Shown here in pieces: positions 4,801 through 58,041 of a stretch of DNA of 64,000 nucleotides. Source of the stretch: Platerodrilus igneus (lineage: Eukaryota > Arthropoda > Insecta > Coleoptera > Lycidae); NCBI GenBank assembly GCA_036346225.1, contig JARFIW010000899.1, forward strand, positions 434,001 through 498,000, given 5' to 3'. The first letter of the stretch is position 1. Each line of letters starts with the position of its first letter. Position numbers and translations under genes: made by a program. The notes below the pieces were generated by a model that did no database searches, was not told the DNA's origin, and saw only the letters and a list, made by a program, of their open reading frames with translations.

Positions 4801-5230
4801 ATGTTGGACTTCTTTAACTTTGCTGTTCCAGTGATCTCCATACTACCTGTGGAAATGCTGGCAAATATTTTGAGGTAAATAGTATTTTTTTTATTCCTTT
4901 TTATTAATTGTTTGTATTTTTAGATATTTGGATCCTAAATCTTTGATAAGTGCCGTCTTCTCTAGCAAGCACATAATGCAAGTTTGCAGAGGTGATCCTG
5001 TACTACGTAAACGTGTTTGTGCTAAATTAATATTAGACAAACAGCTATTTAAACATCGATTTGGAATTGATATGAAATTAATGAAAGGAAGACTTCATCG
5101 TGCTGATGAGCGCAACATACCCAAAGTACACAATTTTACAGTTAGAGTTAATAATAGAATTCCAAGAGTAGGAAAAGTAAAAACAAAACATGATGTTAGA
5201 AATGTACTCTATAGACATATTAGATGTTAA
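4801..5230 (+). CDS. F-box protein, copy 1 (two exons)
   Basis: Exon 1 is 4801-4874, the intron 4875-4923 (49 nt, gtaaat...ttttag) and exon 2 4924-5230, giving a 126-residue protein. Residues about 14-45 form an F-box: ILPVEMLANILRYLD, then a second helix with SAVFSSKHIM. F-box domains bind SKP1 and recruit substrates to SCF ubiquitin ligases, so that is the likely role. The rest is short, very basic (IPRVGKV and R/K-rich) and ends in RHIRC. There are no leucine-rich or WD repeats, so the substrate-binding part is unusual or lost. Start choice: first ATG after the initiator, and conserved in all three copies. Copies 2 and 3 differ by only a handful of residues. An AATAAA signal lies at 5298-5303. 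The product's target is unknown. Confidence 0.8.
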
Positions 5231-5608
5231 GAAATATTCATTGTAAAAGTTTATTAAATATTGACAATAACAATTTTATTTTGTAAATATAATTAATAAT
5301 AAATATTAATCTGACAATATACGTTTTTGTAATTATTGATAATTGATAGAACTAATACTCATATACCTAAAACCTATCACAAGTAAAATTATCTTAAAAT
5401 GGTATAACATTTTCCTATTAATTGTTATTTATTTACATTTCCCCAAACATTGTTCAATAAATATTGCCATTGATTCTCCATACATTCTATAATTTCTCTG
5501 TATTTTCCATGAATTCTGTATTTTAATTCTTCCATCTCATTTTTCACTATGTCATCCGATGCATCTAAAAATACATTAGGTTATTCCAATATTTTTCTTT
5601 TAAACCTC
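5231..5608 (-). pseudogene. 3' flank of F-box copy 1, with C-terminal end of a convergent coiled-coil ORF
   Basis: Reading the minus strand from about 5605 gives one long frame with a single stop, containing NVFLDASDDIVKNEMEELKY and ending at a stop near 5430, close behind the F-box gene and convergent with it. Homologous stretches follow copy 2 (10268-10510), the truncated copy (12190-12410) and copy 3 (13870-14040, plus), some with a one-base frameshift. The segment therefore seems to carry the end of a second, unidentified gene. The frame continues into the 'arm' repeats (6838-7370 and others). Confidence 0.4.
5298..5303 (+). terminator. Polyadenylation signal of F-box copy 1
   Basis: AATAAA lies 67 bp after the stop codon in an A+T-rich 3' flank. 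The neighbouring sequence is conserved after copies 2 and 3. Confidence 0.5.
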
Positions 5609-6837
5609 TGTTACGTTCCAATTTTGCTTTTAAAATTTCCTTGGTTAATTCAATATCCGCTTGAATAAATTCCTCAACTTAAATCTAGTTGCTTTGAAAC
5701 GACGCCTTTATGCTATAATTAAACAGTTTATATCCTGTTTTAGGTACCCGTTATCTTGGTATACATTACGATCGCGTATAATAATTTTCTGTATTGTTCC
5801 AATGTAAAGACTTGTTGAAATAAGGTCGCGTACTATCCGATAAAACCCGGGTTTTCCAATTTCAATCGCGCTTCGATAAGCAAGGGTTTGCAGTTCGAAT
5901 TCGTGTTATTTGAACCATTGTTGAATTTGCTTCTACAGCTTGTCCGTCGAAATATTTTCTACATTATTCATCACCGTATTTCAAAAGCAATGCTCGTTTG
6001 TTCTTTTCTGTTCGAGTAGGAGGTGTCTTGCATGTATTGCTTTTTTAGCTTTAGGCCAAATGGGTTCTTTCTTTCTGTAGACCAACTGTTTTTGTCCATA
6101 AACCGCTGCTGCAGTTATGGTGGCAGGGTAAATAGATCCTGACGACCATGGCGTTGCTGTGCTGACTCACCCCTGACGATTTGCGAGCTAAGTATCCGGA
6201 CACCTACAGGTATGCAACTCGTTTTCTTTTGTGTGTGTCAATGGCATATTCCGTATCCACGGTTGATATAGTTGTCTGATAGGAGGTTTGATATTGTAGA
6301 ACTATTGTTCATTGCTGCTAATCGATATTATCGCTCTACAGGTGTGATGTACCTTTGTTAAAAATGTTGGACAGAAACACGCTTATTCCTTTATACTGAT
6401 AGGTTTATTTTACAAACGGTACTATGTACGATTTAAATGATATCTGACAAAAGCTCCCATGCATTAATTCCTTCCTAGTAATTACTTATTTTACAAAAAA
6501 TATTAGGTAAAATTTTAAAAACGCTTGACAAAAGCACTCGCAGGTTTATTTACTGCTTATTAATTTTATTTTGTGTGAAATACGAGATGCGCACTTCGTA
6601 TCTAAATTTCTAAATTGTCCATACAATGTAATTGTTTGCTGTGAAATAATAACACTTAATTTATTTTCTTTTTGCTCGTTTGTACATAATCCTTTATTTA
6701 TTTTTATGTGTTAATAGATAATCGTGAGTGATGTGTTTTTTTGTTTCTTTTTGGTATGTAGGCGAATCACCTCACCATCCGCATTTGATAGTTAACCTGG
6801 TATTTATTTTTTTCCGGCTACGTCTAGGTATGTAGCA
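5609..6837. mobile_element. Candidate solo LTR (1229 bp) with 4-bp target duplication
   Basis: The block starts TGTTACG and ends GTAGCA. It is flanked by CCTC on the left (5605-5608) and CCTT on the right (6838-6841). In the homologous places at 10515 and 12411 the sequence runs straight through (aacctcgactatgaat and a close variant), so the empty site is visible in this window and shows exactly one CCTC. No coding frame of note lies inside. Internal retroviral-type sequences are absent, so a solo LTR left by recombination is the simplest reading. The family is not assigned. Confidence 0.6.
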
Positions 6838-7370
6838 CCTTGACTATGAATCTTTCCCTAGTTGAATTCTGTAAGCATTGGCATATGACATACTACAAAC
6901 CTGTTCTTACGTTTTCATATTGTGCTAACTTAATCAAAATTGTTATTCATCAACACAACTTTCCTGCTAAATTCATTATCTAACACCAAATCTTGTTTTC
7001 CAACTACTAATTGTCATATCAAGAGATTCAAAAATATCTCTTTTAATCTAGAATCATCAAATTGGTTTTTCTCATTGCTTCTTCATTCCTTTTATAATTA
7101 TGCTTTTTTTGTCTCTTCAATCTTTGGTCGTGCACATACAAACTCCTGCAAAATTTTCTGATTATATAATTCTATGTTTGTGTCTGCCTGCTCATTTATC
7201 TTAATCCTAAACTTGTGAAACTCTCTCTTAATGCCTTTCGCTCTATTTGCCTTTTTTATCTGGTTCCTTTCAACTTTATTTAAAATTTGTTTCCATTTTC
7301 TTATCATTTTCAGTTGGCTATTTTCTAACTTTGCATATACTTCTACTTTGGATGTCGTTAGAATTCAAAA
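6838..7370 (-). repeat. Arm repeat (minus orientation) with coiled-coil ORF remnant
   Basis: This is the continuation of the copy 1 flank after the solo LTR. It matches 10515-11060 directly and 11290-11950 inverted. The minus strand holds the best-preserved piece of the unidentified ORF (7098-7370), with REFHKFRIKINEQAD and ELYNQKILQEF. It is strongly charged and has no recognised domain. It stops at 7370 where the BEL/Pao fragment begins. Confidence 0.55.
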
Positions 7371-8339
7371 TCCCACACCAACGATGGCAGATATACCATC
7401 ATTCCGTGTACAAGAAGTTAAGGCATTTATGCACACTGGGGTAGACTACGCTGGTTCCTTCAACATTACGCTCGCATGCAGACGAGGTCAGCATTCTCAA
7501 AAGGCATATCTTTGTATATTTGTTTGTCTGACTACTAAAGCTGTCCATATAGAGCTGGTTTCTGATTTATCCGCAGACACCTTTTTAGACTCATTTAAGC
7601 GTTTTTTGTCAGGTCGTGGTCCAGTATCTTGTATTTATTCCGACAATGGTACAAATTTTATTGGAGCCAAGTCCAAATTAAATAAAATTCATGACTTGAC
7701 CATATCTCATAATGTCAAAATGTTTTAAATTTAGAATTAAATAATCGACACATTTCCTGGAAAATGATTCCACCCCATGCTCCCCATTTTGGTGGAATTT
7801 GGGAATCTACCGTAAAATCTTTTAAACGCATCTCTATCGTATTGTTGGTGGTCACTTACTTACGTATGAAGACCTTTTGACTGTTTTGATGCAAATTGAA
7901 ACACTCCTAAATTCAAGGCTCCTCTGTGTGTTGTCTGAGGACACTTATCCAGAAGTACTCTCTCCAGCACATTTCTTAATGCAAACGCCGGTGCAATTTT
8001 TACCTGCTTCCGACATGTCAAACGAGCGCTTGACAGTGTGTGACCGTAAAGCCTTACTCAATTCGTAGTTCAATCGTTTTGGCGCAAATGGAGAACTGAG
8101 TATCTGCATACCTTACAGGTAAGAAAAAAGTGGTGCACACCCGATAATCCGGTAAAGATCGGATCAGTTGTTCTTCTAATGCAAGACGACGTTCCACCAT
8201 TAAGGTGACTTTTGGACGTCATTGAAGAAGTGTATCCTGCGACTGATGGAGTTGTCCACGTGGCTCTGATTAGAACCAGAACTACTAAATTTAAATGTCC
8301 GGTAGTTAAATTATGTCCAATACCTAATCAATGATCAAC
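7371..8339 (+). pseudogene. BEL/Pao retrotransposon integrase and C-terminal domain, truncated
   Basis: The 5' part of the element is missing. What remains is the integrase core: VDYAGSF (first Asp), SDNGTNFIGA (second Asp, near 7640), and after a frameshift PPHAPHFGGIWE (Glu, about 7768-7805). Next come ETLLNSR (about 7900) and SPAHFL, then in another frame FWRKWRTEYLH-type text and a DUF5641-like C-terminus with KIGSVVLLMQDD and VHVALIRTRT, ending at about 8332. That order (DDE integrase plus DUF5641) is typical of insect BEL/Pao polyproteins. At least two frameshifts and a TGA in place of a Trp (about 8204) make it non-functional. Confidence 0.85.
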
Positions 8340-23000: not shown

Positions 23001-25331
23001 AGATACGGCCCACGGGCCACTTCTGGCCCCGGTCCGTATCAATACGGCCCAATGTGTCACAGAAAAAAGAATCATGTTTTTTAGAGCTTTTAAACCTCAC
23101 TTGATTCCTCTACAGAAGTTTTAAAATGCGAACACTACATTTATAAGTAATTTCAAGGGCAGCAGAAATACCCTATTATTTTTGTTGTGAACAATAATAT
23201 CTTCACGCGCTTCGAGTCTAGACTAGAATCTTCCTTATCGATATAAAAGAAGTGCGTCGGCGCGACGTGAGTCAGTTGAGTCGCGTAATCGAAGCGATAC
23301 GGTTGGAAATTTTTTTTATTTGTACTGCGAAGTAGTGACTGTGAAGTCTAGTAATTGTGAAGGTATTGTGCATTTGTTTGTGTCATGCGAGTGTGATATC
23401 TAAATTGTTGTGTCGAGTTCCATAATTGTTATGATTTTGGCATAATGTCACGAAAACGTAAAGTTGATAGTGAGTGCAGAGTTTTTCAATCTAAATGGAA
23501 AATTGCATATTTTTTCATAGAATCGAAAGGTAAACCACTGTGTTAGATTTTGCAATCAAACAGTTACTGTTTGTAAGGAGTTTAACTTGAAGAGACACTA
23601 TGATACGAATCGAAATCAAAATTCGATTGTTACACTGAAAAAATAAGAATGGACACCTTGTCATCTTTAAAATCTAAACTTCAAGGTCAACAATCGATGT
23701 TTACTAAAGCTAGTACTAAGAGCGAAAATGCCCTGAAATCAAGTTTTATTATTGCACTAGAAATCGTCAAGAGATCAAAACCTTTCACTGATGGTGATTT
23801 TATTAAAGACTGTATGTTGAGAGTTGCCGATGTTTCATTTCCATTTCAAAAGTCGATAATTAAAAATATTTCGCTGTCAAGAAACACTGTTGCTTTAAGA
23901 ATAAACGATTTATCTCAAAATTTGATTCTTCAACTGAAGGAGAAAATTAAGGAATTTACAAACTTTTCACCGACTGTTGACGAGAGCACCGATACTGTTG
24001 ATACAACTCAACTTGCTGTTTTTATACGAGGTACCAACAATAACTTTGAAATAACTGAAGAACCGTTAAAGTGCATTCCATTGACAGGTATTACAACAGC
24101 AAATTATATTTATTCTGCAATTGAGCATTTGTTAGCAGAACATTAGCTCGACTGGAATAGATTTAGCAGCACAACTACGGATGACGCTCCTGCGATGTCT
24201 GGCAAGCGTTCGGGCTTTGTAACTAAATTAAAACAGAAAACATCAGGGAATTTTGTGGGATTTCACCGTATAATTCATCAGGAATTATTGATATCCAAAC
24301 ATTTAAAAATGGACCATGTCATGCAACCTATTATTAAAATAGTAAATTTCATAAAAAGCAGAGCACTAAATCACCAACAGTTCAGGCAGTTTTTACAAGA
24401 TTTGGACGAAAACTTTTCTGATGTCCCTTATTTTACCGAAGTTCGTTGGCTCAGTCAAGCTATCATGTTAGAAAAAGGCAACCCAATTGATTATGACAAT
24501 GACTGGTGGTTTGATTGTGCATTTTTGGTAGATATGAATAAACACTCGACCGATCTGATTGTCACGCAAATGTATTCATGTATTCAAGCCTTTGAAACAA
24601 AGTCGAGGCTGTGGAAAAATCAAACTTTGGATCATTTCCCTCATTTAAAATCATTTGGCATAGTGAACAAAAAAAATTGGATCAATATTCTCAACTTCTG
24701 CAAAATCTGATCATGAAATTCAACAATTGTTTTGAAGACTCTACAAAATGAATGAAACGGAATTCCAATTTTCAACAATCCATTTAATTTTGAAGCTTCA
24801 TAGGCACCGGTTCATTTGCAAATGGAGTTGATAGAGCTTCTATCGGACAGTGTTTTGAAAGAAAAATTTGAAGAGGTTAACGCTGTTACATTTTATACAC
24901 AATATTTTAAGAGTTTGGAAAACTACCCGGAATTAAAAAAGCATGCAGCACGCATTCTGTGCATGTTTGGTAGCACCTATTTATGTGAGCAGATGTTTTC
25001 CGTCATGAAAATAAATAAGAACAAACATCGCACAAGGCTTACGAATGAACATCTCCAATCAATTCTTAAAATAAGTACAACAAATATGATAACCTGACAT
25101 CAATGAGCTTGTCAAAAATAAGAGAAGTCAGGTATCTGGATCATCGAGCTCAAAATAATTACCCTCTTTTATAACTTTGACATGATTTTTAACAACCGTA
25201 TATTATACTATAAAATTAAATAAGTAAAATGTTCTAATAATCCAGTAATTTTTTTTTTATTTGTATTTGACCCGCATACACATTCTAAATTTAATATATG
25301 GCCCTCTGCAAAATTGAGTTTGACACCTCTG
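23001..25331 (+). mobile_element. hAT transposon, GTF2IRD2-like family
   Basis: The right end reads gagtttgacacctctg (ending 25331), whose complement CAGAGGTGTCAAACTC is a typical hAT terminus. An untranslated stretch rich in ggccc occurs at both ends (23006-23050 and about 25300). A matching left CAGAGG terminus was not found, so the left limit is approximate and the 5' tip may be lost. The transposase pseudogene is listed separately. Confidence 0.65.
23445..25097 (+). pseudogene. hAT transposase (BED-like finger, hAT catalytic core), broken
   Basis: From the ATG at 23445 (MSRKRKVDSECRVF) comes a zinc-finger region with FCNQTVTV and LKRHY after one frameshift. From 23649 it continues with QQSMFTKASTKSENA, SKPFTDGDFIKDC, NISLSRNTVALRI and the first catalytic block TVDESTDT, with DTTQLAVFIRG. 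An in-frame TAG at about 24146 precedes TTTDDAPAMSGKRSG (second catalytic block). VPYFTEVRWLSQ and the C-terminal dimerisation block (FGSTYLCEQMFSVMKINKNK, about 24967-25030) follow. The order and wording match the GTF2IRD2/ZBED-like hAT transposases. Several frameshifts and stops make it inactive. Confidence 0.87.
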
Positions 25332-44722: not shown

Positions 44723-45520
44723 TTATAATTTCCTTATGTATAGGACATATATTGTAGAATATGCAGTAAGCAACAATATATTCAGCAAACTTCTCATTCT
44801 ACCTTTCAGCAATCCAACGCATCTTTCTACAACCATCCTTGCTGATGAATGATGATAAATGTACAGGTTTTGTCTCTCAGTCAAGTGGCAATTGTCTCTG
44901 AAAGTAGCGAGCAAATGCTATTGCAATTTACATGCAGAATCACCCAATATATGTCTATCTGCAAGAAACTTATTGTAATAATTTAAATAATCTGAAACAT
45001 GAAATTGTCGAAAGACTCTGACCATGCACTGATCCAGGATACCCAGTATAATAGTGAACTATTAATGTTATGTGGTCACACGATCTGAAATAAGGCATAT
45101 GCAAAATAAATCATTTACGTTGCAATGCTGTATTTTCTACGAACCTGCAATTGAATTGAATGGGACCATTTGTGGTTCACATAATCAGCTGGATTATTCG
45201 TTAGTACATCAATTTGAATGTGAGTTCCGCCTACAGCTCCCATCGTATTCACAAACCCACTTACTGCAAATCCTTGAATCATTGTATGGACTTTATCTCT
45301 AATCTGTCGTTGTATAAATCAATTACATTTTCTAAAACAGCACTGGTGACTCTTTGCACAGACCTAACTGATGCAGCCTGTCCTATATTAAACAGACATA
45401 AAATTAGAAACGATTAATTACTTCTATGATTGTGCATAATCTGTACCTATATGAAGCATTTGTGGCCATTTACCAAATCGCAATCAATAATTGCTGACAA
45501 GATAGAATTATAAGACAACC
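44723..45520 (-). pseudogene. PIF/Harbinger transposase remnant
   Basis: Minus-strand text from about 45420: IGQAASVRSVQRVTSAVLE, MGAVGGTHIQI-like (about 45220), HSIQLQV-like (about 45120), YTGYPGSVHG (about 45040), LADRHILGDSACKL (44960) and FRDNCHLTERQ (44890). ARMVVERCVGLLKGRMRSL (44835-44790) closes the series. This is the order of the DDE_4-type Harbinger nuclease: GGTHI with D, GDSAY with D, and E in the VERxxGLLK block. Frameshifts between blocks show decay. Terminal repeats were not found. Confidence 0.8.
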
Positions 45521-45589: not shown

Positions 45590-45960
45590 AGCATGTGCGA
45601 AGTTGGAATGAACACTATACAATTTTTAAAACAAGTATATACAGTTCGTTTGTGCCGCACAGTGCCAAAAATTCAGTGTTTGTGCTCAAAAGTTATGCAA
45701 GTTATTCGTGATTTAAAGTGGTCAATCCAACTTTGCAGGAGTTGGAATTGCCACGACGAAAATTGAAACTTTTTAACTTTTTTTTATTGCGTACGTTTGG
45801 TACTCCATTGGTGTTGCGTAGTACTAAAAATTCTGCGTTTGTGGTCAAAAATTGCGCAAGTTATTCGCGATTTAAAGTGACCAATGCAACTTCACGTGGA
45901 GCTGGAATGACCACCATGAAAAATTGGAAATTGTATTACTTTTTTTAGTTCATTTATTTG
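45590..45960. repeat. Terminal region of the DDE/USP-like transposon with 157-bp tandem repeat
   Basis: 45640-45780 and about 45797-45945 are two copies (tatgcaagttattcgtgatt against tgcgcaagttattcgcgatt, followed by ttaaagtg...caacttc). The outer end (agttggaatgaacactatac at about 45604) also occurs, inverted, at 56255-56280 next to the second copy of the transposon. It is therefore a terminal, non-coding part of that element. Confidence 0.5.
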
Positions 45961-47128
45961 TGCTTTCGTTTATGTCGTGGGGTGTGAATAATTCACAATT
46001 TTTAAAAACTCTTTAATTCATATAAGGTAATACAAATTGAAAACAAATATAATTTAATAAGATACATAAAACAATAGATGGGGTTGCACAAAATCAGTGT
46101 GTTTTTATCTTAGATGATAAATCATCAAAAATCTCCCACTCATTAGATGATCGTTGAATATGACACAGACAATGCCCACAATAATTAGCATTAACAGGTC
46201 ATATGAAATCGATATTCGAAACGATAATTTTTGTCTAATAATTGAACAGTACGTGGAATTTCGCATAATTTAACTTTAAAAGTACCACCAGTATTTGTTC
46301 CATCTCGATTAAAGATTTAAAAAAAATTATATTCTGAATGTTATACTGAATATTCATCTTTACTGATTTTTTATGATCAATATTGGTGCATGCTTCAGTG
46401 ATTCGAAAATTAATAATTGCTTCTTGCAATGACTGTAAACCAAACATTGATAGTATGTTATAGTTTAGCGGAATAAATGATGCATATTTACTGACGTTGA
46501 AGATGTAGAATTATAGTACGTCCTTGATTCACATCTTTTTGATTTTGTGAAACTAGGAGAAAAGTCGCAAATCACTTTGTTTACAATATCGGAAATATTA
46601 CAATCACATTTAATCTTTTTATAGTTGCTTTTCTCTTCATAACTTGAAAATATTTTATCCAAAATTTTGACACGAAATTTATAGACGTGCTTCAAATTTT
46701 TATCATGACACAGAGAAAAAAGAAGGTTACAAAAGTCAAAATCAACTTGTTTTTCATCAATTAACGTCTTAACTTCAGTATGATCTATGTAAAGAACTTG
46801 AAATGCATGTGCTATTGCATCAAATGCACACGTGTTTTCAACAAATATTCATGTTTTCTTTAAAACAACTGGTGGTCTTAATTGACTGTTTTGCAAAATA
46901 CGACAATTAGTATTAGTAATTGGTTTACATTCAATACTCCAATCAGGTTGGATTTTTAAATAAGATTTACAATTACCCTTTTTAGTATTTAACCCTTTCC
47001 AGTTTTCCTCCTCACTTGGTATAGTTTGAAATATCGATTCCTTACTGAAGGCAGTGTTATGGGATTTATTTTCTTTTATCTTCGAATTGGTGAACGTATT
47101 GCTATGTGCAATTTTTAACTGACCGTTA
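45961..47128 (-). pseudogene. USP-like cysteine-protease module of a DDE transposon (copy A, 3' part)
   Basis: The minus strand from 47128 reads ALNGQLKIAHSNTF, then KTxIFVENTCAFDAIAHAF (Cys box, Cys codon near 46828), FQVLYIDHTEVKTL, DFDFCNLLFSLCHDKNLKH and KIKCDCNISDIV. FGLQSLQEAIINF and TNTGGTFKVKLCEIPRTVQL follow in shifted frames, then NANYCGHCLCHIQR and WEIFDDLSSK (His box and Asp, about 46190-46090), ending at a stop near 46082. NTC...(about 200 residues)...GH...W..fDD is the layout of ubiquitin-specific proteases (peptidase C19): Cys near the start, His then Asp near the end. A Cys replaces the usual Tyr after the His. A few frameshifts exist. It is the downstream half of the transposase ORF at 53667-54180. 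Confidence 0.6.
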
Positions 47129-47719
47129 AGAGCATCAATTGAATTGAATTGAATTGAAACGTCTTTATTATTAAATTAAATATACATTATGAGATATAAA
47201 CTTTTGGTACAAACTGCATAAAGCGTGATTAGGGCCATCAGGCCCTGTCTTACACCTAACTTGCATGCCTCAGTACTCTTGAATAAATAATTAATAATTA
47301 CTACACACATGCACACACCCTCACACAAACGCACCCTTCTCCCCACACATGCACACACAACACACATACACACACAACCCTCTCTCACACATACAAACCC
47401 ACGCACACACTCATCAAGCATCAGTTTAGGAAAATGCACTTGCCTCTACACCTGAAAGTTTAAAAGATGTTCCTGCAACAGTTTACGAAAATGTTGCACA
47501 GTCCGAGCCTGCCTAATATCAGGAGGAATAGTATTCCACAAGAGGGAACCGGAAACAAGAAAAGATAAATGGAATGTATGAGTATGGTGTATGGGGATAG
47601 ATAGCAAGTCATCTCGCCTAGTGTTATAGCGGCGATTTGAAAGAAAAAAAATTTTGGCTTAGGTAGAACGGTTTTCGGTTAGAAATAAGTTTATAGACAA
47701 GCACTGCCAAGTGAAGTTT

Positions 47720-50315
47720 TCACCTATTGTTTAGTTTAAGCCACGACATTCTTGTGTAAAATGGGGTGACTCTTTTCCAATATTTTAGTTCGAAAATAAA
47801 CAGTACACAACTATTTTGCGAGCGTTGTACACGTAAACTTAAACTAGATGAAAGATTGGTATGTAATGCATCACAATAATCAAAATGTGGAAGAATTAAT
47901 GATTGTACTAACTTTAACTTTAATTTAGTCGGTATAAACCGTTTTGGACGCTTGATACCTGATCTTTCCATCTAAGGTTTGGATCCAACAGGATACCTAG
48001 ATTTTTAATTATAGGTAAAAAGTTTATGTTCAATTTTCCAAGCATTAGCATGGGAAGATCCACGGACTGAACTTATCTAATTAAATTGTGTGTTCCCAGA
48101 AGCAAAGCCTGGCATTTGGCCGGATTTACGGTTAATAAATTATTTTTACACCAAACATTAACTGCCTGGAACGCTTCAATTATTTCTGTTGGAAAAAAAT
48201 GGAAATAAATCTGGACGTCATCTGCATAGCAGTGGTAACGACAAAACTTCAATGTTGTGTAAAAGTCTTTACTGTACAAGCTAAACAAAAGGGGACCGAG
48301 TACACTGCTTTGAGGTACGCCTGTGACAAGATTAACAGATTGTGAGATGTGACCATTTTCATTTTTAACTTGCTGCATGCGTTGTGTTAAGTATGATTCT
48401 ACCCCAGAGATTGCTGACTGAAAAATTATTTAAACATTTTAATTTAGTTAAAAAAATGTTGATGTCAACACTGTTAAACGCTGCACTGAAATTTAATAAA
48501 ATCAATAAAATTAGTTTTTGACAATCCATAGCCTTTCTGACATCATCAGTTACCCGCAGAAGCGCAGTACATGTACTATAATTCGCACGGAAACCCGATT
48601 GGTATTTGTCTAGTAATGTATACTGTTTTAAAAATAACAACATTTGATCAAGTGCTAAGTATTCAGCGGATTTTGAAAGTGCTGGTAAAATGCTAATCGG
48701 ACGATAATCTTCTAGACCTAAAGGGTTTGCTTTCTTTGGTAATGGCCTAATTATGGAGTGTTTCCATACTAATGGAAAACGAGCAGTGCTAAAAGATGTA
48801 TTAATTATACTTGTTAAAGATTCTAGAGCAATTGGGCAGATTTGTGTAAGCATTGAGCTCGATATTTTATCAAAACCCACAGCTTTTGATTTAATGTGCA
48901 GAACAGACTTGTGGACATCATCGGTTGACACTTCAGTAAACACAAATTGTGGAAATGAAGGGGGCGGTATACTGATTAAGCCTTTGATAGTATCCAGTTT
49001 AGCTGTATTGTTTTGCATCATTAATGCAGAAAAATTCGATTCAGCATATCTAAATGTATGCTTTAAGGAATCTGCAATAATGGTTTTCCTATACCAGCTT
49101 TCTTTAAAGCAGCCCAAGTCTTTCGGGAATCGGTATATGAAGCTATAAAATGATAATATTTTAATTTACAGTTTCTGATCAACTGCTTGGTCCTATTACG
49201 TATACTTTTGTAACGGTCATAATTCAATGCAGTGTTAACTTTCTTATAAAATGCAAGTGCACTGTCTCTCATTCGTCTCATTTCATTAATTTTAGGGGTT
49301 AACCACGGAGATTTTGGTCTAGTTACCCTAACTGTTTTAAATGGAGCATGAATGTCAAAAATATTGTTAACGAGTGTATTGAACTTGTGGAGTTTAGCAT
49401 CAACATCTGTTTCTTCATCGATTTCATCCCAGCTCGCACGTTCCATATCTGTCTGTAGAAGTTCAAAATTAACACTCTTAAAATCCCGGTAAGTAACTAA
49501 TTTAGGTTGAAATTTATATGTTTTAAGTGAATATGATACAAAAATAAGATCGTGTTTAGAGATTTCTAATATCGGTATTTGTCCAAAATTTAGTGCTCTG
49601 TCCTTATTCAAAATTATGATATGGTCAATGTTGAAAAGGGTGCATGGCGAGTGGGTTCAAGTGGTAAAATGCTAAGATTACATGCATCCATCATAGTCCA
49701 AAAATAACGAACCTTGGAAGTATCATTCAGTAGATTGATGTTCCAGTCTCCAAGCACGATTATATCTGTGTAATGTGAGTCATACTGAAAAATTACCTCC
49801 TCAACATCAACCAAAAATCCAATTTTTGGTGGCTTATAAACAACTCCAACTAGAACTTTAGCCTGCACAGCTACAATCTCAAGAAAAAGAAATTCCGGAC
49901 GTGCCTTATACATGGAGGTGGAAGATGCAATAAATTTACAATTAAGATCATTACGAACATAAAGAGCCACCCCTCCACCACTTTTCCCTGTTCTGTCGTT
50001 TCGTATAATTTTATATCCTTCTAACTTGACTAAGGAAGCAGACAAGGTTGGTTTCAGCCACGTTTCTGATACAGCAACACAGTGTGGAAGACAGAACTCA
50101 AAAAGGTAAAGAAACTCATCTAAATAAGAAAGTAGTGAGCAGGCATTAATATGACAGCATTGAAACGATTTCGGATGAAGAGAGAGTGATTGACAAAGGA
50201 GAGCGGAACAAGACGGGACAGGTGGCAGGGAGTAGGGTTGTTCTAGATCAATACCAACAACTCTTTCAGGAAAATCCAACTCAATTAAGCATAAATCAGA
50301 AAAATGTTCAGCCAT
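47720..50315 (-). pseudogene. LINE ORF2: endonuclease and reverse transcriptase
   Basis: From 50315: endonuclease with AVSETWLKP, NDRTGKSGGGVALYVRNDL, GVVYKPP and IVLGDWNINLL (50300-49614). A linker follows, with KSPWLTPKINEMRRMRD (49611-49063). The RT has VGFDKISSSMLTQ, WKHSIIRPLPKK, YRPISILPALSK, YQSGFRANYST (49117-48400) and TGVPQSSVLGPLLFSLY (48320). Catalytic CYADDVQIYF lies at about 48250-48220, and the C-terminal LVQSLILPHFDYCDA at 47900. Frameshifts at about 49612, 48380 and 48000 break an otherwise complete protein. The catalytic YADD is intact. Confidence 0.88.
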
Positions 50316-50590
50316 TAATAAATTTCACCCAGAAATAGAAAAATAAGTATTTAAATATAGGATAAACCACATTACCAAACAGTATAAAGCAATGCACCCC
50401 TGTAGCTAAGCTCGAACATTCACACTTATACACATACCTGCACACATTCTTAACTACAAACACTAACCATAACAAACGCTTAATACTAAACCTAATCACA
50501 ATAATAAACAGACAAGTACAAACAAATAAGCACAAAACAAATAAGTGCCAAAAACAAAACAAGATATAAAGGGAGCCAGCTGATACTATA

Positions 50591-52433
50591 CAGGGTGGTC
50601 CGGTTTTCATTAGCCAGCGTATATTTTCTGAACTATGCAAGATATAGAAAAATTTCACAGGAAAAAGTTGTTTGAATATATTTTCTCTACAAACATAAGG
50701 CATTAAGTATTTTTCATGGCCTACTATATTTGAGCAATAATTTGTCACTTTGGTTTTTTAAATAGAACACCCTGTATATTTTTTTGAAAAAATACTCTAC
50801 TTGAAATTGTCTTTATGGCAATATACCACAACCAATGAGTTCTTGTTAGAATGCACTAAATAACTCAAATAATAGAATTCCAATAGGAAACTGTGATTAT
50901 TGTTTATTTACTGTATAAATTAATAAATTGAAAATTTTTTTATACATACATCTAAAAATAATAGCTAACAAGAAAACTAATTATCTTAGTAAATGTTCAA
51001 ATTGTTCACCATGACATTCTAAACATTTATTAATTCGAATAATTAAATTTTCTAGCATCTTACAGCATGACCGGGTAATTAACACTAAGCTGCTCTTATT
51101 TTGCAATTAACTCTTCAAGATTTTGAAAAGGGTAGAATTAGAATTACACTCGATCTTTCAAAAACCCCCAAACAAAAAAATCAAGAACTGACAAATCAGG
51201 TGATCGGGGAGGCCACAAAGTCGGTCTCTTATTATCGATCCAGTTCTGAACAAACTCATTATTTAAATAATTTGTGTCATTGATTCCATTATGTGGTGCA
51301 GCGCTATCGTGATGAAACCATAAGTTTCGCCCGATAACTAGGAAAATATCATCTAAGAAATCTTGAAACGAAGTTTGCAAAAACATCAAATATCTATTTT
51401 GGGTTAAACTACCATTAAAGAAATACGGACCCGGTATGCGGTCACCTACTACACTTATCCAGACATTCACTGAAAATCGTACTTGTGAACGGCTTTCAAC
51501 AAATTGCAAAGGATTTCTATCATTCCAATAATGTGTATTTTTTCTGTTAAAAATACCATTTTTATGAAATTTAGATTCATCAGTCCAAATAATACTGTCC
51601 AAAAATTCTCTTCCCATACATTCAATATCCATATACAAAAACCAACTCGGCTGTTGGCATAATTGGGATGTAATGTTTGAACCAAACGCATCTTAAATGC
51701 TTTCATTGAATGATGCCTCAAAACATTAAAAATCTGTCGAAACGTTTAGTTCAGCTACAGCTTGTCTCGGATAAACTTTAGGATAAGGTCTAAAGTAAGC
51801 CAAAATAATCAATTTATGTTGTACTTGATTTCTGGTGATAGTTAAAAAGCTACCATTAGACCTTAAAGAATTTTCTAAATTCTTAAATGTATTTATATTT
51901 GGTTGTCTACGGTCAGGATATAACTTTCGATAAAAAACTGCAGCTTGACGTTTATTGTTGTTTGATCTATGAAGACAGCATAACATATCAACTTTTTCAT
52001 TGTTTGAATAATTTATTTCCATTATTTTGCGTGAAACAACTATTAAGAACACAATAATACTTTTACTTATTTATGTGACAGATAATTGTGAATAAACAAC
52101 TGAAATACTGCAATGGCATTTGTTAACAGAAATAATCAGATTGAAATTCTATTATTTAGGTTATTTAGCGCACTTTGAATCAAAATCATTGATTGTGGCA
52201 TATTCCCGTAAAGACAATTTCAAGAAGAATATTTTTTCAAAAAAAAATACAGGGTGTTCTATTTAAAAAACCAAAGTGACTTATTGTTGCTCAAATATAG
52301 TAAGCCATGAAAAATACTTAATGCCTTATATTTGTAGAAAAAATATATTCCAAAAACTTTTTCCCATGAAATTTTTCTATATCTTGCATAGTTCAGAAGA
52401 TATACGCTGGCTAATGAAAACCGGACCACCCTG
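50591..52433 (-). mobile_element. Tc1/mariner-type element, 1843 bp, with long TIRs
   Basis: TA duplications flank it (50589-50590 and 52434-52435). The ends begin CAGGGTGGTCCGGTTTTCAT, and about 235 bp at each end are inverted repeats (catggcctactatatttgag against ctcaaatatagtaagccatg; the inner limit is near 50825 and 52205). It lies in the spacer between ORF1 and ORF2 of the LINE, so it arrived later. Confidence 0.88.
50985..52025 (-). pseudogene. Mariner-type transposase (DUF4817 HTH, DDD), two frameshifts
   Basis: It starts at MEINYSNNEKVDML (52022), a DUF4817-type helix-turn-helix with YRKLYPDRRQPN, and runs to PRQAVAELNVSTDF. After a frameshift (about 51735) comes NVLRHHSMKAFKMRLVQTL and FCIW. 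A second shift (about 51640) leads to the catalytic domain: WTDESKFH (first Asp), VNVWISVVGDRIPGPYFF, WFHHDSAAPH (second Asp) and WPPRSPDLSVLDFFVWG (third Asp, 36 residues after the second). The C-terminus has INKCLECHGEQFEHLL (about 51030-50985). Wording and order match the insect DUF4817-containing mariner-like transposases. It is nearly complete but inactive. Confidence 0.85.
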
Positions 52434-52591
52434 TATAGTTAGCGTACAAAATCAAAATCAATAGCAAATATCAAATAACAGTAACAAATACAAATGTAGT
52501 TGAAAAGAAACGTCAGATTATATAATATTATAGAGCACCATATCATATCATATAGCTATCAAAATAAGGCGGTAGATACCAGGCATACAAC

Positions 52592-53233
52592 TTAGTTACT
52601 TTTACTTTGACTTCGAGTACTATATTTAACTCGTTTAATTGCGGTCTCATTCTCACAAACTTGAATGCAAGAATTTAACTGTGACAAATTGATAACACTC
52701 TTTATACTGTTATTAGGCAGGTGAATAAAAATTCGTCCGTCTAATGTCCAAACTTTTGATGCGCCAAAGTGTTTTTTAGCAGTATTATACGTCAGAAGTC
52801 TGCGCATAGTTAATGATTCCGTAATTATGAACGGTTTTCCTTTTAACAGTTTTTTATTTATCTACACTTGATGACGATATTTATGACACCATTTTTATTA
52901 TTATAGGTCGTGGTTTGTTGCTGGTATCTTTACGAATGGGACCAAGTCTATGACAATGGTCAATCATAGAATCCGGGTAATCAGGAAGTCCAAGATAAGA
53001 TTTTATAAAATCCAAAGCTAAGCTACGAGTGTCTTCACCAGTGCTATCTTTAATCCTGCGAATTAAGAGGCAATTACAGCGTGAATAAGCCTCAAGTTGA
53101 TCGATCTGATCTCCAACGTTTACAATTAGGTTTTTAATGAGTCAAAATTGCGCCTTTGAGGCAGCTGCAAGTTTAACTTCAAACTACTGCATAGTTGAAA
53201 GAAATTTTTTTCAAGCCTATCAAAGGCACTCAT
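52592..53233 (-). pseudogene. LINE ORF1 (L1-type RNA-binding protein)
   Basis: It starts at MSAFDRLEKNFFQLCSS (53233). After a frameshift comes DQIDQLEAYSRCNCLLIRRI, then GLPDYPDSMIDHCHRLGPIR, KPRPIIIKMVS, KKLLKGKPFIITESLTMRRL and VWTLDGRIFIHL, ending near 52592. The RRM-like part followed by HRxG, PRPIIxK and LT..R is the layout of L1/CR1-type ORF1 RNA-binding chaperones. An in-frame TAA after KMVS shows decay. Confidence 0.75.
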
Positions 53234-53641
53234 TATATATTTTAAAATTATATCTTAGAGATAGCAATAGCAGTCATTGAAATGAAACTAGTTGCATCTA
53301 CAGTATTTTAAATAAATGTATGATATCTATATCTCAGTTTGAACGCCGATTAATGTAATGTAATATAATTTTAGTCTAAGTACATACTACTTGTTTAACA
53401 CATGGTGATAAAATATGCACTAATAGACTATCAATACGAGTTTAATTAACATTTAGAGTTCACTTTTGTACCATCAAATTGCATAAGCAAACTACAAAAG
53501 TACCGGCCGGTCTGAGCGGATGATCAAAATGACACGTTGAAAGTTAATACGGGTCATGAATACACATTTGCTAAATAAACTATCAAACTAGAACTAAATG
53601 TATAAATTATAGAATTATAATAATAATTACAGAGAGAGCAT

Positions 53642-54180
53642 GTTTAAATACGTCTGTTCACTTCGACTACAACTCGCTATCAATGTGTTTCATTAAAAAG
53701 ATGCCTGTTCGAAGAGGCAACATGTTATTAAACATTAAATGCTTAATATCCTTAAAATAACTTTCAATTGAAGCAGTTGTGCATTTCGTATTTGCATATT
53801 CATAATAAACCGTCATAATAGCACTCAATGATATTTTCCAACATATGTTTCTTAAAACTGGAATAATTTCTGGAAGACTGTACATGTTGTTTAAGCCAAT
53901 TTCAAAATTTCTCTTGCTATTTATAGATGACTGTGCCTCATTCTGTGCGGAATTATAAACTGTTTCAAACCAGTGGCAATTTAACTCTACTTCTGTTTCT
54001 ATTTCTTTTTTTCGGTTTCTTCATCATTAAAGTCTTGAATAATTAAACTTCCTTTCGAAACGAATTCAATGATGTTATTTTTAAATCCTTACAGATATTG
54101 GTTTCATATTTTGATAATACTACAATCAAAATATCTTTTATGACCAACTTTACTATATCAAGATGCAGAAAACGAAATAA
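53642..54180 (-). pseudogene. Transposase part of the DDE/USP-like transposon, copy A (5' truncated)
   Basis: The minus strand from about 54170 reads DIVKLVIKDILIVVLSKYET, then EFVSKGSLIIQDFNDEE and ELNCHWFETVYNSAQNEAQS in shifted frames. EIIPVLRNICWKISLSAIMT and TASIESYFKDIKHLMF follow (ESYFKDIK near 53760, a candidate place for the catalytic Glu), then MKHIDSEL. Frame reading continues across the LINE site into 47128 (the codons from TDVFKHAL run on). It is cut off at 54180, where copy B starts head to head. Confidence 0.65.
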
Positions 54181-54579
54181 AGTGTAAGATACATTTAGCT
54201 ACTGATGTATGGGACACAATTAAGCCACAGTACGTTTATGGTAGTCGAAATGAAAAACAAAGACCCAATTTAATATTTAAAAGAATGAAAATTCTGCCAA
54301 AAGGAATGTGGATCATAATGATAAAAAGATAAAAGGTCCATGCACATGGATTTTTAAAATAGATAATATAAAAACAATTTATTGTATAGGAAAATGTAAA
54401 CAATGTGAAACGATACTTCAATGTGATATGAATGAAATCCAGTTCACGAAAACGTTGAACTAGTATGCACAATAAAAAACTTAGTTAAGAACTTTATCCA
54501 TAATCAAAAAATTAAAAAGACATTAGCATGTATCAAGTGCATAAAAATTGCTCAAGAACTAAAATATAAATCAGTTTCT

Positions 54580-55505
54580 TTGTTAAGAAAGGAATTGGCA
54601 GATAGACTCATGAAGTATGGAAAACCTGAACCTCCCAATATACCGTCAGATATTGTTCTGAGAAAAGTGAAAGAACAAAATAGGAATGAGGAACGCTTGC
54701 ATTCTGATCCACTGCTAAGGATCTGGCTGTCCAAATATGCTATGCCATATATGGGTACAATTCGTCATATTGGTTTGGATCCGTTCCTTGTGCATTATTG
54801 GACTAACTTCCAAATTGCATTTTACAAAGATTATATAAAAAGAAATAAAATTTATTCCATCGCAATTGATGCTACGGGCAATGTAGTTAAAAGTATTAAA
54901 CTAATTCCAAAGTCTAATGGATTATTCAAACAAAAACCTACCTTTCTATATTCCGTAGTAATAATTACTGACAAAAAAACCATTTCAAAATATCATATGT
55001 TCTCTCAAGAACATACTACAAATGCAATTGCACACTGGTTAAAAAATTGGTTGAAAGTATTGAAAATCGAACCACCGCAAGAGGAAAGAACTGACGCATC
55101 ACTGCACTAATTAATGCTGTGGTTGAAGTTTTTATTACATTTAAGAAACTGGATGGCTATATTAACTACAGTCTCAGATGTTTGGAAACGGGCGAATGTA
55201 TAGACGATTGCTTTATAAGATTAGACAAAAATAATCATTTTATTAAAATGATTTCAGCGTGGAAGTGCTTTAAGGATAATAAGAGGTTAAAAAAATTTTA
55301 TTGTCATGCACTTGGTCTATTGGTTGATGAAACGTCATTTGATATCGTAAAGTTAGTCATAAAAGATATTTCGATTGTAGCATTATCAAAATACGAAACC
55401 AATATCTGTAAGATTTCGAAAGTAACATCATTGAATTCGTCATATTTTGCAAAACGGTCGTTTAAGACCACCAGTTGTTTTAAAGAAAACACGAATATTT
55501 GTTGA
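54580..55505 (+). pseudogene. DDE-type transposase core of copy B
   Basis: Text in order: LADRLMKYGKPEPPNIPSDI, VLRKVKEQNRNEE, MGTIRHIGLDPFLVHYWTNF, YSIAIDATGNVVK (candidate first Asp, about 54864), TFLYSVVIITDKK, SQEHTTNAIAHWLKNWL, RTDASL (candidate second Asp, about 55094). A 1-base loss at about 55108 leads to LINAVVEVFITFKKLDGYIN, CFIRLDKNNHFIKMISAWKC and FYCHALGLLVDETSFDIVKL. I know this pattern from uncharacterised insect proteins. The IDATG and TDxxLxxLxxAV spacing is MULE- or KDZ-like, but the superfamily is not settled. Confidence 0.6.
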
Positions 55506-55519
55506 AAACACGTGTGCAT

Positions 55520-55756
55520 TAGAATAGAATAGAATAGAATAGAATTTATTCACCATTATGGTACATAACATTGTACATAATATGGAAAGTCAATGGATAA
55601 TATGTAATACAGTTTTATATATCTAAAGCTAAATATATGATCACATTGTGACTAGTTAAAATTTATTGTTAAAACTTAAAAATAATATATTTTAGTTATA
55701 TAATAGAGTATTTAGTATATAAAAATAATATTAATATCACTTAAATCACTTAAATT
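55520..55756 (-). mobile_element. 5'-truncated LINE tail with (TTCTA)n end
   Basis: About 237 bp split the protease Cys box of copy B; in copy A gtgtgcatttgatgc is continuous. It starts with four to five TAGAA units (the complement of a TTCTA tail), followed by a unique A+T-rich part. This is the mark of a CR1-like LINE insertion in minus orientation. Confidence 0.6.
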
Positions 55757-56295
55757 TGATGAAATAGCACATGAATTTCAAGTTCTTTACATAGATCATA
55801 CTGAAGTTAAGACGTTAATTGATGGAAAAAAAAGTTGATTTTGACTTTTGTAACCTCCTTTTCTTCTCTGTGTCATGATAAAAATTTGAAGCACGTCTAT
55901 AAATGTCGTGCCAAAATTTTGGATAAAATATTTTCAAGTTGTGAACAGAAAAGCAACTAAAAAAAGATAAATGTGATTGTAATATTTCCGATATTGTAAA
56001 CAAAGTGATTTGCGACTTTTCTCCTAGTTTCACAAAATCAAAAAGATGTGAATCAAGAACATGCTATAATTCTACATCTTCAACATCAGTAAATATGCAC
56101 CATTTATTCCGCTAAACTATAACATACTATCAATGTTTGGTTTACAGTCATTGCAAGAAGCAATTATTAATTTTCGAATCACTGAAGCATGCCCCAATAT
56201 TGATTGAATTTTTGGCACTACGCAGCACAAACAAACTGTATTTATTTGTTTTAAAAACTGTATAGTGTCCATTCCAACTCCACACACGCATTTTG

Positions 56296-57172
56296 AAAAT
56301 GTAATTTGAAAGATAATAAAATATATACTTATCGCATAAAATGGCTTTTGAATTCATGATCCAGATATTTTTTTACAAAAGCATATATCCTAAAATTCGA
56401 GGATGTAGTTCTTGCTTCTTTCTTGCAAAGAAATTTTTCAGTCTTCAGAACTTGAACGTTCAAAACTATTACTATTATTTCAAAAAAATGTAATCGAATT
56501 AACAACCTAATTTTTTTTTATGGAAAATGTTACCAAAAAGTCTAAACATAAGATTTTGTGGTTAACTTTCAGTTAGCAGCCAAGCAGCTAGTCCACTTAA
56601 ATGACAGACCACGATTTATTTGAAGTAGAATGGTAAAACCATGGTCTTGATCGTGACAATCGTTAAATCGAACGTAACCCAAAAGTTTCAGCATAGTACC
56701 TCTACAAATTTAAGAAAACTATTACTTGTGGGTGCCGATGGGTTAATAATAATAATTAATCATGGGCTTATACATATTAGTTTGAAAAATGTTTTATTTA
56801 ATTTTTTAAAAGATGGCTAAAAAGTAAGCTGTACATTTAAATGCTTACTAACCAAAAATGGATTATGACACAACACATTTCCGTAATAATATTAGAATCC
56901 GCGTCGAAGATTAAATAATGGAAATAGCTGAACGTATACAGAAAAGTTGCTGCATGGCTTTTATTTTATAATCATAAGATACCTACAATAAATATCCTCA
57001 TCTAGAACAAACTATTATAAAAATTTATAAAGGTAAACACAAGTTAACTCCTTGCAGGATAGTAATATTAATATGCACATCCTAGAAAAAAATTAATCCA
57101 AATTAAAAAAAAATAACAGAAACTTATAAACGATTTATTAAAGGCATACAAAATATGCAACACAAGAACTAT
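56296..57172. other. Intergenic stretch
   Basis: No gene, repeat or RNA could be supported. It includes the eL13 polyadenylation signal (57134-57139, complement of AATAAA). Confidence 0.35.
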
Positions 57173-57841
57173 TTATTTTTTAGATTTTTTAGGTTCTTTT
57201 GGAGCCTTAGTCACATCATCTGCATTTTCAGCAGCATCCTTCTGTCTCTTTGCACGAATACCAACAAGACGAGCATCAGCACGTGCTTTTCTCAAAGTTG
57301 TATAAGCACTGAATTTCTTTTCGTCTTCAGTAACCACACGAGCCTTGATTCTAGTACTAGCTTGTTTAATCGGTAGTACTTCACCGACCAATTGAGTGGC
57401 CAATTTACATTCTTCTTCGGTTGCTTCACCAGCACGCAACTTCTTTTTATTATGGATTGGGAACAAAATCAACTTGGAACGATACTCCTTAAGACGTTGT
57501 GCATTAAGTTGAATAGATTCAACAGATTTGTTTCGTCGTCTGTAATCAACAGAAATTCCAATCGTACGGGCAAATGCGGCATGCAATCCAGCTGCTTTTA
57601 ATTCTTGTAGGGTGAATCCACGCCCAGCACGTACCTTAGTATGGTATCTAATGGTCGGGCATCTTACAATAGGTCTGAGTGCTCCTGCTGCTGGTCTAGG
57701 GGCAATCGATCGCGCCTTTTTTATGCGGTTTTGTTTCCTTCTAAATTTACGAGCGGGCTGGTTGAACCAAGTTTTAACGAAACGTTGCCAATCCTTATGG
57801 AAATGGCCATTCGGGATCATATTATTACCTTTCGGTGCCAT
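57173..57841 (-). CDS. RpL13: Large-subunit ribosomal protein eL13
   Basis: A single open frame of 222 residues from ATG 57841. It is a component of the 60S subunit in the cytoplasm. It begins [20 protein letters not shown], followed by [14 protein letters not shown] and [67 protein letters not shown] and a lysine-rich end with PKEPKKSKK follow. The length is near the usual 205-220. The frame is open for 26 more codons upstream, but the leader there carries a pyrimidine tract, and eL13 starts at MAPK in other animals. No intron interrupts it. No poly(A) tract or target duplication marks it as a retrocopy, and a leader and AATAAA (57134-57139) are present, so it is probably the working gene. 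Confidence 0.95.
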
Positions 57842-57889
57842 TTTGCAAAAGGATAGCACTAAACACGAGGCACACTTTGACAACGATAT

Positions 57890-57904
57890 AAAAAAGAAAG
57901 AGGT
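57890..57904 (-). promoter_or_regulatory. TOP-like pyrimidine tract upstream of eL13
   Basis: The complement reads CCTCTTTCTTTTTT about 50 bp before the ATG. This fits a 5' terminal oligopyrimidine start typical of ribosomal protein genes, under TOR-dependent translation. No TATA box is obvious just upstream. Confidence 0.5.
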
Positions 57905-58041
57905 TACAGCGTATTTCATAACGCGTGCGCTGGCGAAATTGTGTTCAAATAATAATCACTGCAATGGCGCTACCGTGGATTGATTGAACTACACCAAAAA
58001 ATAATAAAAAATTCGATTTATGTCATGTGGCATCAACTGTG

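Follow-up and report, generated by a model that had tools for sequence, protein, structure and literature searches.

Two broken copies of a Foldback-type element in Platerodrilus igneus and a probable ubiquitin-specific-protease-like domain fused to the transposase of their relatives

The stretch of DNA analysed here, 64,000 nucleotides from contig JARFIW010000899.1 of the lycid beetle Platerodrilus igneus (hereafter the window), contains a transposon for which an earlier note, made from the letters alone, proposed an open reading frame (ORF) that joins a DDE transposase to a cysteine protease of the C19 type, that of the ubiquitin-specific proteases (USPs). The observation as first reported is confirmed in part, and its interpretation is supported. 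We conclude, with a probability of roughly 0.82, that two damaged copies of a Mutator-like element (MULE) of the Foldback type, NOF-FB lineage, lie in the window, and that relatives of this element would encode a transposase and a C19-type isopeptidase working in cis.

The element and its insertions in the window

The element extends from 45594 to 56304, as mapped by BLASTN against L043, an independent copy, and not from 45961 to 54180 as first proposed. This span consists of two decayed partial copies of one transposon family, arranged head to head with the junction at 54160/54161 (Table 1). The motifs NTCAFDAI (from 46836), GHCLCHIQRSSNEWEIFDD (from 46177) and ESYFKDIK (within the ORF 53667-53885) are encoded on the minus strand, as had been noticed; the Glu of ESYFKDIK (codon 53765-53763) is the third catalytic residue of the transposase in the minus copy. 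On the contrary, IDATG and TDASL, which were thought to lie upstream on the same strand, are on the plus strand and belong to the second, inverted copy. The single minus-strand ORF does not hold either: the Cys half and the His half of the protease-like domain are in different frames, a stop stands between the linker and the Cys box, and there are frameshifts. In the minus copy a long interspersed nuclear element (LINE), which itself contains a mariner-type element, separates ESYFKDIK from NTCAFDA; the corresponding sequence of L043 is not split.

The Glu and His parts are lost from the plus copy, and in the minus copy the Tyr of the GHY motif is replaced by Cys. After the Cys box, over 452 aligned positions, the identity of the two copies is 96%; they also have in common a frameshift in this part which L043 does not have, and so come from one already damaged ancestor. 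A second locus, L044, also carries an inverted neighbouring copy of the same family (2-941, an inverted match to L043 4898-5857), and elements of this kind may often occur in head-to-head pairs.

Among 400 windows of 64 kb simulated at the dinucleotide frequencies of the real one, 12 occurrences of the Cys-box pattern were counted, 2 of the His-box pattern and none of the two together at the right distance; since the patterns were composed after the motifs had been seen, this is a plausibility check only. The window has a second NTC-like match at 24092; its frame is rich in stops and has no His box, and the match is compatible with chance.

Regarding the LINE, its endonuclease ORF matches Pfam PF03372 (25.9 bits for a cut-off of 24.5), and another ORF is, from its appearance, presumably its reverse transcriptase. 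The insertion is flanked on both sides by ATTGAT.

Table 1. Positions of the two copies, their coding motifs and the sequences inserted in them
Feature	Position	Strand	Basis
Minus copy, second piece (linker, C19-like domain, 3' terminal repeats)	45594..47139	-	BLASTN, L043 between 4291 and 6461
3' terminal region, tandem repeats of about 159 bp	45594..45995	-	repeat analysis, BLASTN to L043
His/Asp half of the C19-like domain (GHCLCHIQRSSNEWEIFDDL)	46097..46198	-	GHC in this copy; other copies of the same family (family A) read GHY here
Cys half of the C19-like domain (IFVENTCAFDAIAHAF...)	46468..46848	-	open frame; at least 56 matches in this genome, among them those of the window
Presumed catalytic Cys codon (NTC at 46836-46828)	46828..46830	-	Cys in 19/19 relatives compared
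LINE inserted in the minus copy, mariner included	about 47140-53678	-	junctions compared with L043
Mariner-type element with 300-nt inverted ends, within the LINE	50585..52439		DDE_3 27.1 bits, just under the cut-off of 28.6
Minus copy, first coding piece with ESYFKDIK	53679..54161	-	BLASTN to L043 3808-4296
Plus copy, beginning inside the coding region, internally deleted	54160..56304	+	BLASTN to L043
Blocks of the plus copy that match L043	54160-55440, 55439-55523, 55754-56204, 56205-56304	+	BLASTN
First catalytic Asp (IDATG), plus copy	54868..54870	+	translation; same motif in L051 and most relatives
Second catalytic Asp (TDASL), plus copy	55093..55095	+	translation, relatives; the frame breaks right after
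Foreign insertion with (TAGAA)n inside the plus-copy Cys box, from its appearance presumably a LINE 3' end	55524..55753	+	homology gap 55523 to 55754

Transposase and protease-like domain in the relatives

The P. igneus assembly (GCA_036346225.1, 2.71 Gb, 1723 contigs) was searched for further copies; the counts are of matches, not of copies, and are lower bounds. The Cys half of the window has at least 56 matches (its two copies included, with several matches at some loci), the His half of a family C at least 146 (150 of 555 first-look candidates scored) and the transposase of a family B at least 90 (87 of 762 scored). Among the 51 loci retrieved, several of which overlap, at least three families have in common the order transposase, Glu box, Cys box, His box: family A, which is that of the window (for example L002/L043 and L009/L048, with L046 as a distant member), family B (L033, L034, L035 and L037) and family C (L032, L036 and L038-L042). 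Two of the 20 larger loci, L031 and L050, were left out because their DNA does not match family C.

The majority of the genomic copies are damaged. An uninterrupted frame of 863 residues is found in L051, with the catalytic D, D and E of the transposase followed by the Cys, two CxxC, the His and the Asp of the protease (motifs IDATG, CDFDRAL, AAVESEF, NTCGFDS, CQSC, CIKC and GHYTAYIRNNAKWIQYDD); about the first 170 residues of the protein P0002 have no counterpart in it. With L051 as the query, 31 protein relatives were found, and no match in viral contigs or prokaryote genome contigs. P0002, P0003 and P0004 are single open frames of 1040-1091 residues, and the seven relatives that span the whole protein (these three, P0006, P0016, P0020 and P0024) have 1023-1119 residues. 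It is in such continuous frames that the proposed fusion of the transposase with a deubiquitinase-like domain of its own is borne out. A profile of the C19 region matches 18 of the 31 relatives, 8 of these 18 having also been used to build it; P0004 bears a precomputed PF00443 label in the protein collection. The other 13 align to residue 615 of L051 at most, with no more than 19 residues beyond, and the Cys is residue 625: every relative that reaches the position of the domain has it.

We give practically no credit to the idea that the transposase and the protease are two neighbouring genes which decay would have made look like one ORF. In the window the two parts are indeed separated and in different frames, and in family B the frames are about 174 bp apart (6338-7807 and 4842-6164 on the minus strand of L034, 5883-7343 and 4905-5708 on that of L035), the gap being possibly an intron or a shared frame break. 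However, the 863-residue frame of L051 refutes two separate genes, and the frames of P0002 to P0004 are equally continuous; in the window's own family, L048 has a 225-residue frame that holds both the Glu box and the Cys box. In L042, of family C, a 585-residue frame runs from the Glu box to the zinc fingers, with the His box in another frame.

It is also very improbable that the protease is a passenger, that is, a fragment of a host USP captured by one element and without function for the transposon. MULEs are known to carry pieces of host genes (Pack-MULEs; PMC8277862), and many of the genomic copies are decayed. On the contrary, the presence of the domain in 18 of the 31 relatives, all those that reach its position, the conservation of its catalytic residues and the agreement between the trees of the two halves speak against a passenger. 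These trees were built separately for the transposase and the protease of 18 proteins, namely L051 and 17 of the 31 relatives. They have 11 of 15 splits in common; when the labels were shuffled 1000 times, the mean number was 0.3 and the highest 3. Three of the shared splits have a support below 0.3 in one tree, and four splits with a support above 0.8, two in each tree, disagree. Such agreement suggests that the fusion is old and stable. Among eight full or nearly full proteins, the transposase part has a mean identity of 37% and the protease part one of 29%; their C19 domains are 21.5-70.7% identical and the catalytic residues do not vary despite this divergence, which argues that catalysis is under selection. 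We infer one early acquisition of the domain, followed by selection on catalysis.

The assignment of the domain to the C19 type, as a USP-like protease, is supported by its motifs and by profile comparisons. Cys, His and Asp follow each other in the order seen in USPs, with GHY...W..[FY]DD, and among the sequences that reach these positions the Cys is present in 19 of 19 (18 relatives and L051), the His in 12 of 12 and the Asp in 10 of 10. The columns that are invariant in nine C19 regions are the T, C and D of the Cys box, both CxxC, GHY, the W, the first D of DD, and A, R, L, S and A elsewhere. Each of the two zinc-finger CxxC pairs is kept in 18 of 19 sequences (P0028 breaks the first, with C-G, and P0026 the second, with C-K); in decayed copies of families A and B, including those of the window, some pairs show one clear Cys only. 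In P0006 and P0022 the second residue of the DD pair is Gly, the Cys, the His and the first Asp being kept.

The Pfam model UCH passes its cut-off of 23.9 bits in four of five genomic His halves (33.5 bits in L040, 30.8 in L032, 27.5 in L042 and 26.0 in L012, which belongs to family A) and, among the nine whole relatives, in P0004 (24.5 bits). When the nine C19 regions are isolated, seven match UCH at E up to 1, the best at 5.2e-6. The profile of these nine regions was also searched against 177,635 PDB sequences (E up to 10). It returned 59 rows, many of which are the same protein: the first 40 are all USPs, and in total there are 49 USPs (USP18 counted), two rows of the TssM deubiquitinase and eight unrelated ones; the best E is 4.6e-5, and 12 rows have E up to 0.001. 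Against two solved USPs, hhalign gives 90% in local mode and 88% when the alignment is forced end to end, over 225 columns in which NTC, both CxxC and GHY are aligned; the maximum of 100 column shuffles in local mode is 0.95%. A set that contained a typed consensus and USPL1 gave 96-98% and was excluded from the evidence. The likeness of the C-terminal part to C19, first suggested from a few motifs, is recovered in the relatives. The decayed pieces of the window itself have only unrelated weak rows in Pfam, with no UCH, and at best 1.5% with hhalign against USPs; their sequence matches nothing in the PDB, in 5.8 billion proteins or in viral contigs. The His half of L042 alone finds in the PDB yeast Ubp8 at E 0.032 only, beside 11 unrelated rows of PrfA.

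Several results weigh against the C19 assignment. UCH stays under its cut-off in L033 (17.5 bits), L051 (19.3-22.4 bits) and P0024 (17.5 bits), seven of the nine whole relatives have no UCH line, and the Cys half alone matches UCH in no piece scanned by Pfam. The alignments of the PDB search cover mostly the His half (profile positions 187-259), the Cys box scoring -2.8 bits against USP46, and the local hhalign alignment is narrow, with 41 columns in the His region only. The C-terminal part of L051 alone finds no USP in the PDB. The AlphaFold2 models of two window fragments, neither of which covers the full domain, have a mean predicted local distance difference test score of 40.3 and 42.6. 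USPs carry an Asn five residues before the Cys (an oxyanion residue, as in USP7); it is found in 0 of 18 sequences, and three residues beyond the Cys there is an Asp where USPs have Asn.

The lack of this Asn also favours another explanation, in which a USP-derived domain would no longer act on ubiquitin. It would instead be an isopeptidase of the SUMO type, as USPL1 is, or a protease that processes its own protein by cutting the transposase polyprotein. The spacing of His, Trp and Asp in the window copy equals that of USPL1 (H-x11-W-x3-DDL), and the USPL1 model Peptidase_C98 (PF15499) gives matches below its cut-off of 27 bits in 3 of 10 pieces (20.2, 22.8 and 22.8 bits) and a match in one of the nine isolated regions (E 0.014). 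However, ordinary USPs outscore USPL1 in Pfam, USPL1 is absent from the 59 PDB rows, and hhalign gives 19% for USPL1 (shuffle maximum 3.9%) compared to the 90% obtained with USPs. We therefore consider a shift to SUMO or to self-processing rather unlikely, and retain a USP-like domain of the C19 type.

Other proteases were considered and rejected. OTU and Ulp1 have no Pfam or PDB match, and the catalytic order of Ulp1 puts the Cys last. The Asp-x-His motif of the VTD deubiquitinases does not fit, the His of L051 preceding the Asp by 15 residues.

Assignment to the Foldback/NOF-type MULEs

The earlier note knew of no described insect family with this pairing. As a transposon, the family is nevertheless known: it is a NOF-FB or Foldback-like MULE. 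Two of the protein relatives, P0012 and P0023, from the ants Harpegnathos saltator and Camponotus floridanus, are named by their source '120.7 kDa protein in NOF-FB transposable element, partial'. Their transposases are homologous to that of the present element (E 1.1e-125 and 6.1e-84, with L051 as the query); unlike its full-length relatives, they are partial and end before the C19 region.

The ends of the element point in the same direction. All three family B copies with both ends in hand, L033, L035 and L037, have 9-bp target duplications (CCAAAATAT, TTAAGTAAG and TGGAAAATG), and L032, of family C, has one of 9-10 bp, read by eye; both families are thus within the range of about 8-11 bp by which MULEs are recognised. 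Foldback ends are long and made of tandem repeats. Family B has long inverted ends with tandem units of about 157 bp at both ends, and family A has units of about 159 bp at the 3' end, matched in L049 by inverted ones upstream of the coding part. By eye, the terminal motifs of the three families are alike (GTGAAGTTGG/GTGAAGTTAG in A and C, TTAAGTTAGACCCCC in B). The family B copies are about 97-99% identical over long aligned stretches and differ in the number of their terminal repeat units, which suggests that a Foldback-type element has been active recently in this genome.

The transposase is less easily recognised by itself. The Pfam MULE domain PF10551 stays under its cut-off of 27.6 bits in two of the nine whole relatives (P0004 17.5 bits, P0016 16.2 bits) and is not listed for the other seven or for six of six further pieces, and no solved relative of the family B transposase was found in the PDB. 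The motif patterns of the first D, the second D and the Glu are found in 13, 14 and 14 of 18 proteins, some of which are truncated or spelled otherwise. Taking together the 9-bp duplications, the inverted ends made of tandem repeats and the relatives named NOF-FB by their source, we place the element among the Foldback/NOF-type MULEs on the grounds of its structure and of its homology to these ant proteins, not of a comparison with Drosophila NOF.

Two neighbours of the element in the window may be mentioned here. An intact ORF of 248 residues (57173-57919, minus strand), a single open frame at a distance of about 0.9 kb from the plus copy, presumably encodes ribosomal protein L13, which it resembles; since it is uninterrupted, it would be a retrocopy or a single-exon gene. 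A transposase-like fragment (44723-44914, minus strand) is presumably of the PIF/Harbinger type, which it resembles.

Possible function and comparison with known systems

DDE transposases cut and paste DNA, and USPs remove ubiquitin. In the full-length relatives the protein, of about 1020-1120 residues, begins with a region whose conserved Cys pairs may bind DNA, continues with the DDE transposase core and ends in the C19 domain, which has two CxxC zinc knuckles. The transposase would cut and paste the element, leaving the 9-bp duplications, and the C19 domain would remove ubiquitin or a ubiquitin-like tag in cis, the likeliest substrate being the transposase itself, or chromatin or repair proteins at the site of excision or insertion. 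Once the tag is removed, the transposition complex may be spared clearance or stalling. The earlier note proposed that the domain might shield the transposase from turnover or help the element to escape silencing.

One may go further and suppose that the Foldback/NOF MULEs as a lineage are obligate fusions of a transposase and a deubiquitinase, with an ancestral C19 domain selected for catalysis, and that they would be unable to move without editing the ubiquitin of the host, either at the donor site or at the target site; we put this forward tentatively, as a possibility that falls short of even odds. If a C19 domain is indeed stably fused to the transposase, the question of why a transposon needs a deubiquitinase could be tested directly by changing a single residue, since the catalytic residues are the same in relatives that have diverged widely.

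Tm1, a Mutator/Foldback family of root-knot nematodes, has composite inverted repeats of variable length and 9-bp target duplications (PMC3169594), and both traits are also seen here, the 9-bp duplications in family B. Tm1 encodes a putative transposase of 496 residues, and the main text of that paper contains none of the words protease, ubiquitin, SUMO and Ulp1.

Human USP46, USP12, USP15 and USPL1 resemble the present domain by the order of the Cys box, the two CxxC and GHY...W..[FY]DD. The latter differs from them in that it lacks the Asn five residues before the Cys, reads NTCxFDS where they have NTCYMNS, and is fused to a transposase.

Ginger1 transposons carry OTU or Ulp1 domains at the C-terminus (PMC2836005). 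Like the present element, they join a transposase to a C-terminal cysteine protease of the ubiquitin/SUMO pathway; their transposase is of the integrase type, however, and their protease is OTU or Ulp1 instead of C19. The same paper describes one protein of Trichomonas vaginalis with transposase_11 and Peptidase C19. Helitrons encode the VTD deubiquitinases, which have been tested biochemically and have an Asp-x-His motif (PMC9741609). These too are deubiquitinases encoded by a transposon, but Helitrons are rolling-circle elements, whereas the present element has a DDE transposase and a His that precedes the Asp at the spacing of USPs.

A transposon with a protease of the ubiquitin pathway is therefore of a known kind, as Ginger1 and the Helitrons illustrate. 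No description of a C19 domain in NOF/FB elements or MULEs was found in the open-licence literature, judging from titles, the first lines of abstracts and excerpts; Repbase reports were outside this search, which makes it weak evidence of absence. The OTU, Ulp1 and VTD proteases have been read as mobile DNA manipulating ubiquitin and SUMO. If our reading is true, a C19 domain stably fused to a Foldback/NOF transposase would add a further class of protease as a fixed component of a transposon, and selfish DNA may bring its own enzyme to edit the ubiquitin tags of its host.

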